Below are positions 33,324-37,218 of a DNA stretch of 44,971 bases, piece after piece; within the stretch, counting starts at the first letter, position 1; the number at the start of each line of letters is the position of its first letter. The position numbers and the translations under genes are program-made. The notes under the pieces are model-generated. The model saw only the letters and a program-made list of their open reading frames with translations. It made no database searches and was not told the origin of the DNA. Source of the DNA: an uncultured bacterium (lineage in GTDB: Bacteria; Cyanobacteriota; Vampirovibrionia; Gastranaerophilales; Gastranaerophilaceae); NCBI GenBank assembly GCA_902796585.1, contig CADBPN010000108.1, positions 1 to 44,971 on the forward strand. Direction: 5' to 3'.

Positions 33324-34322
33324 CTAACCGCCCCAATCGAATACTGATTCAATAGCATCATTTATGAAAGATTTAACGGATTCTATTTCTGTATTGATTG
33401 CTTCAAGTTCAGTGGATAAGTCTGCCATTTGAACATCGAGCGCATCTTCTTTTTCTGAAACTTCAGCTTTTTCTGCTTCATACCAAGCTTCAATTTGTTT
33501 CATAACCTCAGAATCGTATCTTGCTTCAAGGAATCCGTTAGTTAAGAAATATGTTAATGATGTATCGGCATCATAGTTACCATAATCATCAACCTGAGCT
33601 AATTGGAAAATTCCGCTGTTTATTGCATCGCCTAAATAATCTTCATTTTCATTGATTGCGTCATTATATTCACTTGTCCAGCCGTTTGCCGCTGCTGCTT
33701 GGAAAATAGGATAATAGAAATCGACGATTCGTTCTATAGCTTGTGTTGTATAATCAGTTGTGTCTATATTTCCGGTAGTTCCTGTATTTTCTCCTGTTAA
33801 AGAATTTACATTATGAGAACTAAAACCTGTAGAGATACTTCCGCCTTCGATTACTTCTTTGAACTGCTCTGCTGTATATCCCGGAACAAGTTTTGCCAAA
33901 ATTTCGGGAATTTTATCTTTTGAGAAAGAACCGCCTCTGTCTAAAATATTATTTGCCGTACCGCCAAGAACTTCTATAATAGCATCACCATACTCTTTGC
34001 TCAAGACAACTCTTCCGTTGTAATCAGTAAGTACAACAGAGTTATCATCTTTTCTTGCTTGCGGGGTAACAGTATTATCAATACAGCTGTACGGAGTCAT
34101 TTTATTACCCATCAAATACGCATAGTTCAGTTTATGATAGTCGCCGTTGCTGTAATATGCAAGCTTTTTCTGCTGCATACGGCTTTGTTTTTCTCTCGCT
34201 AAATCTTTTGCTTCTCTCGTATTAGCCATCTTTCTGGCAGCCAAAATAGCGATATCCACCTCGCAATCTGCTTTACGAGATGTCAAAAATAACAAATGTA
34301 CTTGTGCTGCTGCTAGACACAT
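33324..34322 (-). CDS. Unknown 332-aa protein expressed from a sigma-28 promoter
   Basis: I do not know the family. The N-terminal 60 residues form an amphipathic helical region starting MCLAAAQVHLLFLTSRKADCEVDIAILAARKM, with no classical signal peptide. The middle is acidic and Gly/Thr/Asn-rich. The C terminus (about 280-325) is a predicted coiled coil (EAWYEAEKAEVSEKEDALDVQMADLSTELEAINTEI). A helical N and C terminus around a variable middle recalls proteins exported by flagellar or type III systems, but that is only a resemblance. AAAGGAA precedes the ATG, and a near-perfect FliA promoter 35 bases upstream puts it in the late flagellar regulon. Confidence 0.75.
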   Translation of the reverse strand: MCLAAAQVHLLFLTSRKADCEVDIAILAARKMANTREAKDLAREKQSRMQQKKLAYYSNGDYHKLNYAYLMGNKMTPYSCIDNTVTPQARKDDNSVVLTDYNGRVVLSKEYGDAIIEVLGGTANNILDRGGSFSKDKIPEILAKLVPGYTAEQFKEVIEGGSISTGFSSHNVNSLTGENTGTTGNIDTTDYTTQAIERIVDFYYPIFQAAAANGWTSEYNDAINENEDYLGDAINSGIFQLAQVDDYGNYDADTSLTYFLTNGFLEARYDSEVMKQIEAWYEAEKAEVSEKEDALDVQMADLSTELEAINTEIESVKSFINDAIESVFDWGG

Positions 34323-34486: not shown

Positions 34487-35644
34487 ATGAATGAAATCAG
34501 TGCAGTTACAAATTACCCTGTATCCGTAAGTGAAAAGAATAATGTCAAAGCAGTTAATTTCAGACGTTCTAACGTAGTTGAGAATCAAGATTCTTATGAC
34601 AGATTTATAAAAGAACAGGAAGAAGCAAAGAAAAAAGCTAAAAGACAGCAAATATTTACAAATGCTGTTTTTGGTACAATGGCTCTTTCAAGTTTAGCAA
34701 TGTTAGGATTTTATTTACACCATGAAGGAATTTTCAAAAAGTTTAAACTTGATTTTAAGGATATAGTAAAAGAAAAATCTTTAAAAGATATGGCAATGCC
34801 TGACACACAAACAGAAGCTGCAAATCGTATTTCAACAAGAATTAAGCATTATGATGAAATGATTAAAAAAGGCGGTAAGAAAGGAAGTTCAATTCTTTTC
34901 TACGGACCTCCCGGAACAGGTAAAAATACTTTTGCTTACGGTATCGCAAAAGAATTTCCGAATGCAAAATTTATAGAAATGGATATTTCCAAAATGAATT
35001 CAATGTGGCATGGTGAATCCGAAAAGAATGCATTGGGAACAATGGAAGCAGCAGTAAAATATGCACAAAAACACAGAGATGAAAAACTTTTTGTATTCAT
35101 TGATGAAATTGATTCTGTCATGATGAAAGATAACGGTGCAAATGCAAAAATGTCAAATGACATGTTGAATGCTTTCAAAAAAGGTTTTAATAAATTAACA
35201 AATGAAGAAAATATTATCGTAATCGGAGCAACAAACTTAAAAATAAATCCTGAATTGGGCGCTTTAGAAAATAAAGCCCTTGATACAGCAATGTTAGACA
35301 GATTCTCTCAAAAAGTTCTTGTTGATTTGCCAACTAAGAAACAAATTCTTGAAAGTGTCGGCAAGTTCTACAACAATCCTGAAAGAGGAATGATTGACGA
35401 AGCATTGAAGAACAAAAACGACCAAAGGTGGGATAAGATAGCAGAATTCTTGTCGGACAAAAAACATGCAACATCATTCAGAAAATTGACCGATATTTTA
35501 GGAACAGCGGCAGAAAGTACAGAAATCGGAAAGAATGTAACGTTTGAAGAAATTATAAATGCGATTAAAGTAAACAAGAGCAACTTAAATGCAACAGATG
35601 CAGAAATGCAAGCATTTATCGATTCTATGAAAAAAAGTAAATAA
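34487..35644 (+). CDS. Membrane-anchored AAA+ ATPase with GKN Walker A (first of pair)
   Basis: 385 residues: a short N terminus with VNFRRSN (23-29), a charged stretch (41-54), one membrane helix (about 56-77), a linker, and an AAA+ domain. Walker A is GPPGTGKN (140-147), with Asn where the Mg-binding Thr/Ser is expected. Walker B is LFVFIDE (201-207), sensor-1 lies in IGATN and an arginine-finger-like LDRF follows. The Msp1/ATAD-type layout suggests a membrane-bound remodelling or extraction ATPase facing the cytoplasm. The ATG at 34487 is used because AAGG precedes it and the upstream TTG frame runs through the promoter module. The partner gene starts 12 bases downstream. Confidence 0.85.
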   Translation: MNEISAVTNYPVSVSEKNNVKAVNFRRSNVVENQDSYDRFIKEQEEAKKKAKRQQIFTNAVFGTMALSSLAMLGFYLHHEGIFKKFKLDFKDIVKEKSLKDMAMPDTQTEAANRISTRIKHYDEMIKKGGKKGSSILFYGPPGTGKNTFAYGIAKEFPNAKFIEMDISKMNSMWHGESEKNALGTMEAAVKYAQKHRDEKLFVFIDEIDSVMMKDNGANAKMSNDMLNAFKKGFNKLTNEENIIVIGATNLKINPELGALENKALDTAMLDRFSQKVLVDLPTKKQILESVGKFYNNPERGMIDEALKNKNDQRWDKIAEFLSDKKHATSFRKLTDILGTAAESTEIGKNVTFEEIINAIKVNKSNLNATDAEMQAFIDSMKKSK

Positions 35645-35656
35645 AGGAAAAATAAA

Positions 35657-36958
35657 ATGGTAAACTCAGTAAGCAGTAATTTAGTGAATTTTAGAAGTGT
35701 AAATCCACTTCCCGTAAGACAAAAAACAAATTTCAGAGCATCAGATAATTACAATAATTACGAACCTGCAGAACAAGATATGTTTATGTATCAAATGCAG
35801 CAGGAAAGAAAATCCCAAAAATCACGTGACAGATGGAATAAGGCAGGTGTAATTGCATCTTGTGCAATTGCGGGAAGCTTGGCTTTGGGAGCGTTAGTTC
35901 AAGTGCCGACTCTCAGAATAAAAGCAAAATTGCTTACAAATGAGTTAAAAAAACAAACCGGTGAAAGCAAAAAAGCAGGTTTAAATTTCTTTGATGTAAC
36001 AAATGAAAAATCTTTTGAACAGCTGACTTTAAGCAAGGAAATGAAAAAAGTTGTAGAAGATATGAAAACTTCTATTGACAGAGCAGAATGGTTAAAGAAA
36101 AAAGGTGCAAATGGCGGTAACGGCATTATGTTGTACGGAGAACCCGGAGGCGGTAAAAATGCTTATGTATACGCATATACAAAATACTTGCAGGAAAAAT
36201 TTCCCGGTTCAAAACTTATTATGATGGATGTGTTGAAGTTTAAAGATAAATACGTCGGCGAAACAGAAAATAATATTATTAACTTTGTAGAAAATACTAT
36301 TAAGGAAGCAAAAGCAAATCCGGATAAAAGATACGTTGTATTCTTAGACGAGTTTGATTCAATCGCAAGAAAAGACGAAAGTCAAACAAATAAAGCTCTT
36401 GCGGAAAGTTTCCAAAATGCATTTAAGACAACTCTTACAAAATTAACAGATGTTGAAAATATTCAAGTTATTGCAGCTACAAACAAAGCTTCAAAAGACG
36501 AAGCAATTACAAAATTGTTAGATGATGCAATTATGAACAGATTTCCGAAAAAATACCACGTTCCTCTTCCTAACGAAGAACAATTGAGAATTGCAATTAC
36601 GGAACATTATAAAACAATTCCGTCAGAGCTTGTGGATTCTAAATTAACAGACAAAAATAACAGCGAATTAAAACGACTCTGTAAGTATATTACTAATAAA
36701 AACCATCACGCTTCATTCAGAGATATGCAATATATTTTAGATGAAGCAAGGATTATATCCGAATCCAAAAACAGGACGCCGGGTTCAAAAATTACAATAA
36801 AAGATCTTAAACAAGCTGTGAAAAACCATGCGGAAAATGAAAACTGGGAAAAAGGCAAGGGTAAATCCAACCGCAGAAAAAATCGTGAGCTTGACGATAA
36901 TACGGAAAAACTTTCTTTCTGGCAGAGATTAAAGGCTTTGTTCGGATACGGCGATTAG
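35657..36958 (+). CDS. Membrane-anchored AAA+ ATPase with GKN Walker A (second of pair)
   Basis: 433 residues with the same plan as its neighbour: an N terminus with two NFR motifs (VNFRSVN at 10-16, TNFRASD at 24-30), a Gln/Lys/Arg-rich helix, one membrane segment (about 63-83), a helical linker and an AAA+ domain. Walker A is GEPGGGKN (161-168), again with Asn for Thr/Ser. Walker B is VVFLDE (227-232), sensor-1 is AATN, and the Arg-finger region reads IMNRFPKK. The C terminus is very basic (KGKSNRRKNREL). The sequences have diverged widely while the GKN is kept, so the two may form a hetero-oligomer. AAAGGA precedes the ATG. Confidence 0.85.
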   Translation: MVNSVSSNLVNFRSVNPLPVRQKTNFRASDNYNNYEPAEQDMFMYQMQQERKSQKSRDRWNKAGVIASCAIAGSLALGALVQVPTLRIKAKLLTNELKKQTGESKKAGLNFFDVTNEKSFEQLTLSKEMKKVVEDMKTSIDRAEWLKKKGANGGNGIMLYGEPGGGKNAYVYAYTKYLQEKFPGSKLIMMDVLKFKDKYVGETENNIINFVENTIKEAKANPDKRYVVFLDEFDSIARKDESQTNKALAESFQNAFKTTLTKLTDVENIQVIAATNKASKDEAITKLLDDAIMNRFPKKYHVPLPNEEQLRIAITEHYKTIPSELVDSKLTDKNNSELKRLCKYITNKNHHASFRDMQYILDEARIISESKNRTPGSKITIKDLKQAVKNHAENENWEKGKGKSNRRKNRELDDNTEKLSFWQRLKALFGYGD

Positions 36959-36962
36959 CTTT

Positions 36963-37097
36963 TGTTGGGTTTAACCCAACCTACTATTAGCACATTTACC
37001 CCTCTTCCGAAGGATGAGGGAACCTTAAGATTGTTTTTGCTGTTGATATTTGATATAATTAAGAATAACAAAGGAGTAGGTTGGGTGAAACCCAACA
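36963..37097. mobile_element. MITE-like palindromic element (135 bp) with 23-bp inverted ends
   Basis: The left end (36963-36985) and right end (37075-37097) are inverted copies of AGTAGGTTGGGTTAAACCCAACA with one mismatch, and each end is itself a hairpin. The interior holds a CCCTC...GAGGG hairpin (about 37000-37020) and no frame. No target duplication is obvious. Related hairpins recur at 44726-44750 and 44836-44860. Confidence 0.5.
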
Positions 37098-37218
37098 ATA
37101 ACAAGATAAAGTGATGTTTTTATATTAGAAATTCTCAAAATCTCTGTTCTTTTTTTTCAAACCGACTGTAATTTTTTCACATATTTACCGGTTCGTTAAT
37201 TTGTTATATTATTAGCAA

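Follow-up and report, generated by a model that had tools for sequence, protein, structure and literature searches.

Tandem membrane-anchored AAA+ ATPases with a GKN Walker A motif in a three-gene module of one bacterial genus

Two adjacent genes in a 44,971-nucleotide stretch of DNA from an uncultured bacterium (the whole of which is called the window below) encode AAA+ ATPases, P1 and P2, in which Asn stands at the Walker A position of the usual Thr/Ser. From their sequences, both were confirmed as anchored ATPases of the classic AAA clade with a GKN Walker A and an intact DE Walker B. The GKN triplet proved to be a conserved character of otherwise intact motors, since every member of the three subfamilies that carry it retains it, dN/dS is low and the rest of the catalytic set is complete. 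In the explanation that we prefer, and to which as a whole we give an even chance, P1 and P2 would be the two ATPase slots of a c1/slot 1/slot 2 module found across one genus, and would act as a membrane-bound remodelling ATPase that serves c1 with slow or ADP-favouring motors.

P1, P2 and the GKN character

Table 1. Position of c1, P1, P2 and their motifs in the window
Feature	Coordinates	Strand	Remarks
c1	33324..34322	-	332 aa; divergent from the AAA pair; central domain flanked by a long helix at either terminus
P1	34487..35644	+	385 aa; slot 1 AAA+ ATPase, subfamily A (GPPGTGKN)
P1 predicted membrane segment	34652..34708	+	residues 56-74; part of slot-1 anchor
P1 Walker A GPPGTGKN	34904..34927	+	Asn147 codon 34925-34927
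P1 Walker B Asp206-Glu207	35102..35107	+	
P2	35657..36958	+	433 aa; slot 2 AAA+ ATPase, subfamily B (GEPGGGKN)
P2 predicted membrane segment	35843..35899	+	residues 63-81; part of slot-2 anchor
P2 Walker A GEPGGGKN	36137..36160	+	Asn168 codon 36158-36160
P2 Walker B Asp-Glu	36347..36352	+	

The two genes lie in tandem with 12 bases between them. An earlier sequence-only reading had described them as membrane-anchored AAA+ ATPases that both carry GKN next to an intact Walker B, and this description was borne out. P1 has GPPGTGKN-T as Walker A and FVFIDEID as Walker B, P2 has GEPGGGKN-A and VVFLDEFD, and the usual GK[T/S] of the AAA family is absent from both. GK[T/S] is typical of the Pfam AAA family (PF00004), and its profile does not require it; P1 (84.8 bits) and P2 (69.7 bits) score above the curated cut-off of 21.2 bits, and PF00004 is the sole Pfam model that matches them well. 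By sequence, the nearest solved structures are those of Cdc48, Vps4 and CdvC, with Cdc48 and Vps4 the best. The AlphaFold model of P1 has a pLDDT of 78 overall and above 90 across most of the AAA part; it matched proteasomal ATPases, spastin, Vps4 and FtsH with VIA Z scores of 20-22 over about 250 residues, and Msp1 was among its Foldseek matches. The genome of the window is a draft of 179 contigs, 87% complete, and among its eight best-scoring AAA loci the six proteins besides P1 and P2 are all GKT. From the gene content, the organism was judged to be a gut bacterium of Gastranaerophilales type.

The predicted topology gives each protein one hydrophobic segment, N-terminal to the AAA domain. 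Its mean Kyte-Doolittle value is 2.07 in P2 and 1.45 in P1, which is weak alone (the slot-1 mean is 1.84). The slot-specific anchors are made up of an NF[RK]A motif, a basic stretch and one predicted membrane helix. Close to the N-terminus, 75/76 slot 1 and slot 2 proteins have a short motif of the F[RK]A type, in most cases NF[RK]A or FKA. NFG/FKN-like versions are seen in further membrane proteins of the order, and the motif may be a sorting or anchoring signal. Directly 3' of P2 (window 36962-37098) there is a 24-nt inverted repeat, TTGTTGGGTTTAACCCAACCTACT, with arms 96% complementary and 89 nt apart, which resembles a terminator or a small mobile element. Scans for promoters and terminators found no more of them than in shuffled sequences.

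For the survey of GKN, 40 loci of the genus were taken and their AAA genes were read; a P2-like protein is present at E 1e-20 in 41 of the genus's 65 genomes. Subfamilies A (P1-like, 15/15), B (P2-like, 11/11) and C (5/5) are all fixed for GKN, C being a slot-1 form with GEPGGGKN or close to it. GKT or GKS in the close orthologues would have meant a local mutation, a check that the sequence-only reading had proposed. The close orthologues are GKN in 31/31 cases, as against 0/86 for the genus's remaining AAA domains of this group, and this conservation across independent genomes rules out both a local mutation and a sequencing artefact. The sister clade of A and every other occupant of the locus are GKT, the 41 dispersed paralogues of the genus are all GKT or GKS, and the nearest relatives read in other genera, a partial sample, were likewise GKT/S, with no GKN found among them.

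Three positions set the 31 GKN domains apart from the 86 GKT/S domains, namely N147, Y151 and K169. Y151 is present in all 31 GKN domains and in 1/86 of the others, where the residue is mostly K; K169 is likewise invariant in the GKN domains, as compared with 4/86 in the others, where D is usual (S in the sister clade of A). The exchange to Y151 and K169 may replace a K151-D169 contact. The pairwise dN/dS of A, B and C lies between 0.05 and 0.27, and together with the constant company of Y151 and K169 this agrees with the earlier claim that the Asn is under selection. In addition, 31/31 GKN domains keep the Lys of Walker A, the DE of Walker B, the sensor-1 Asn, the Arg finger (Arg at 272), the sensor-2 Arg and an aromatic pore residue (W/Y/F at 174). 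The low dN/dS and the retention of all other catalytic residues make proteins of the P1/P2 type look like working motors.

As to the origin of GKN, the whole-domain tree needs two changes, the half-domain trees leave the N-lobe unresolved, and over residues 155-199 subfamily A is nearer to B and C than to its own sister clade. The trees fit either one origin with mosaicism or two origins, and N147, Y151 and K169 may form one shared segment; two independent origins are not established. A second change at the Mg2+ site, hhhNE (Asn for the Walker B Asp), was seen in 41/86 GKT/S AAA domains of the group, genus-wide, and together with GKN in 0/31; judging from these counts, the two changes look mutually exclusive.

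The three-gene module and its exchangeable motors

The gene c1 adjoins the AAA genes in 41/42 loci, the window included. Most usually the order is c1 and then aspS; in several loci, of which the window is one, c1 and the AAA genes lie together away from aspS. No match of c1 passed in Pfam, NCBIfam or PHROG. Its structural model (pLDDT 80.8, helices 2-50 and 271-331) gave no convincing Foldseek match, the best E value being 0.39 with long-helix matches only, and its VIA Z scores of about 8-11 are in the noise range for long helices, which also holds the flagellar filaments at Z 8-9. Of the 192 genomes of the order, 168 have relatives of c1, and often they have several each. The orthologue of c1 in a sister genus (loci L130-L133, 45-48% identity) is not accompanied by an AAA gene; its neighbours include one gene that is FlgE/F/G-like by TIGR03506 (above cut-off), one that is FliJ-like at 37 bits (under the 50-bit cut-off) and one with a weak FliK-like match. 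FlhA-family export proteins occur in 65/65 genomes of the genus. A connection between c1 and flagellar-type export is therefore a lead and not a result, and weaker than the rest of the mechanism proposed below. The FlhA-family proteins are themselves duplicated, most of the 65 genomes having two distinct full-length copies and a shorter third match. At locus L137 (G077 contig 21) there is a second c1 copy, 57% identical, near a 218-aa AAA fragment in which no Walker A was found.

Across the loci of the genus, the N-terminal parts of the ATPases go with the slot and the AAA parts do not. Same-slot pairs reach N-terminal identities of up to 70% despite AAA identity near 30% (67% against 29% in one example), while different-slot pairs with at least 40% AAA identity average 27% in the N-terminal part. 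The same can be seen in nucleotide alignments. Between loci L076 and L080, identity is 80-95% for most of the flanks that they have in common, 84-91% along the greater part of slot 1, 52-62% in the slot-2 AAA part and then 81-90% downstream. Between L076 and L078 it is the slot-1 AAA part that stands at 51-58%, the slot-2 AAA part being mostly at 74-86%. Two further loci, both with c1 and aspS alongside, have unusual genes. In L223 (4607-5917, minus strand) a single AAA gene joins a slot-1 anchor to a transmembrane/AAA part of slot-2 type, an apparent fusion of the two slots, and in L136 (8076-9377, plus strand) an anchor of slot-1 type precedes a different type of AAA+ domain (GPAGTAKT), which scores 47.9 bits for AAA and 21.6 bits, below cut-off, for the Torsin profile. 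As judged from these alignments, repeated exchange of motors between loci behind fixed anchors was shown. All loci come from draft assemblies, and single recombinant loci may be assembly chimeras; the same exchange recurs in many genomes.

Co-variation within the module was assessed by partial Mantel correlation given the aspS distance. For c1, the correlation is r 0.68 (p 0.0005) with the slot-2 anchor and a weak r 0.21 (p 0.02) with the slot-1 anchor; between the two anchors r is 0.42 (p 0.0005), and neither motor correlated significantly with c1. Since the slot-1 AAA part lies between c1 and the slot-2 anchor, the co-variation of these two is not easily explained as simple linkage. Part of it could stem from transfer of the whole module as one block, with motors swapped afterwards. 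Taken together, these comparisons show the motors as several interchangeable AAA domains, of which those of P1 and P2 are apparently two, within one three-gene module.

Nucleotide chemistry, proposed mechanism and alternatives

When ClpB is given GKN by a T-to-N change, its ATPase activity is partly lost, hydrolysis is slowed and ADP is favoured, while hexamers stay intact (PMC3352338). It is plausible on this basis that P1 and P2 have an altered nucleotide chemistry, so that the sequence-only proposal is plausible as far as slow hydrolysis is concerned. Its other version, a nucleotide-locked switch, is unsupported because all the other catalytic residues are intact. Each ATPase combines a slot-specific anchor with a classic-clade motor of the Cdc48/Vps4/Msp1/FtsH type. 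In the mechanism that we propose, such proteins would assemble at the membrane into homo- or mixed hexamers, and a client would be threaded or remodelled via the aromatic pore loop; c1, or something recruited by c1, might be that client or a regulator. The GKN motors would turn over slowly or favour ADP, in a cycle that is tuned, not locked. A further reading, which we put forward tentatively and regard as rather doubtful, is that two fixed anchors co-evolve with a secreted or structural coiled-coil client and carry interchangeable motor cassettes (GKN/DE, GKT/DE and GKT/NE), the kinetic class being the exchanged trait.

GKN might instead be a tolerated, near-neutral state derived from one ancestral P-loop segment, with the motor little changed, which we consider possible but clearly short of probable. 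The residue may matter little because giving TorsinA GKT (N109T) leaves its chaperone activity unaltered (PMC5628414); the three linked residues fall inside 147-169 and may have been inherited together as a block, and the trees are compatible with a shared segment. However, a near-neutral state accords poorly with conservation in 31/31 domains despite a protein identity of about 30% between A and B, and the T-to-N change in ClpB was not neutral. Decay of the P-loop would go further, leaving pseudo-ATPases that only bind nucleotide or serve as scaffolds. The loss of the usual Mg2+ ligand is what such proteins would display, but the 31/31 retention of every other catalytic residue and the dN/dS range given above make this highly improbable.

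The sequence-only reading had also held that GKN is kept for a paired complex. A dedicated hetero-oligomer whose subunits must both be GKN for it to work as a slow or nucleotide-locked switch would fit the tandem arrangement of the genes, the co-variation of the anchors of both slots and a raw excess of GKN/GKN pairs (Fisher p 0.03, uncorrected). The slot 1/slot 2 states are GKN/GKN in 9 loci, GKN/GKT in 10, GKT/GKN in 2 and GKT/GKT in 16, however, and thus 10/19 GKN slot-1 proteins have a GKT partner. On the aspS tree the state changes at least 4 times at slot 1 and at least 5 times at slot 2, which leaves too few independent pairs for testing; only 2 pairs independent on the species tree stand behind the raw association. 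Moreover, the slot-1 and slot-2 AAA distances given the aspS distance are uncorrelated (partial Mantel r 0.06, p 0.13), and the hydrolysis residues are complete. Pairing of GKN was accordingly dropped as a rule, and the dedicated hetero-oligomer appears unlikely. We regard as quite unlikely, too, that the genes form a relative of IetAS that acts against phages or in some other conflict, with motor swaps driven by an arms race. The AAA domain is recognised by IetA profiles (70 bits for P2, and 57 bits with NCBIfam IetA), and domain swapping with patchy presence (41/65 genomes at E 1e-20) is typical of conflict genes. Yet the scores of Cdc48 and Vps4 are just as good, neither c1 nor the site is island-like, both being conserved, and c1 has no protease or defence match. 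Identity with IetA is rejected by the NCBIfam scores of P1 and P2 (40.8 and 57 bits), far under the equivalog cut-off of 510 bits. No subtilase partner of the IetAS kind was seen among the reading frames listed beside P1 and P2 (downstream neighbours by eye only), and c1 and a 405-aa neighbour gave no protease match in Pfam.

Comparison with known AAA+ systems

In the literature searched, no reports on proteins of the P1/P2 type were found, and torsins were the only AAA+ proteins described there as having GKN naturally; the importance of the residue in torsins is debated. Torsins have a GxxxxGKN Walker A (PMC7175109) and are without the Arg finger and the aromatic pore loops (PMC7175109, PMC4999309). 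P1 and P2 resemble them, for example TorsinA of the ER lumen, in the Asn for the Walker A Thr/Ser within GxxxxGKN, in the canonical DE Walker B, in a predicted membrane-associated setting and in a proposed activating partner protein. In contrast to torsins, they possess an Arg finger and an aromatic pore loop and fall in the classic AAA clade rather than with Torsin/Clp. A torsin identity was rejected on the presence of these two elements; PF06309 was not listed at E 0.001.

With the Msp1/ATAD1 dislocase, P1 and P2 share a predicted N-terminal membrane helix, a single classic AAA domain and an aromatic pore loop. They differ from it in having two slots, the c1 partner, GKN and a different anchor, and they are not counted as its orthologues; we infer that their mode of action is that of Msp1 and other anchored AAA proteins of the classic clade. 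FtsH, also a membrane-anchored AAA protein, is the best-known bacterial relative of P1 in fold (VIA Z 21.7). Unlike FtsH, P1 and P2 lack a zinc protease domain: both end soon after the AAA domain and neither sequence has HExxH, which rejects an FtsH identity, and a separate FtsH-like GKT protein is encoded in the same genome (contig C17). Cdc48, Vps4 and CdvC are the best sequence relatives of known structure, but P1 and P2 have a membrane anchor instead of the MIT or double-ring architecture.

Evolution by repeated swapping of motors onto conserved anchors would be unusual among AAA+ proteins, and it points to c1 as a specific partner in uncharacterised bacteria. A bacterial family that combines GKN with an Arg finger and a pore loop of its own, and whose close relatives in the same slot are GKT, offers a clean natural comparison.
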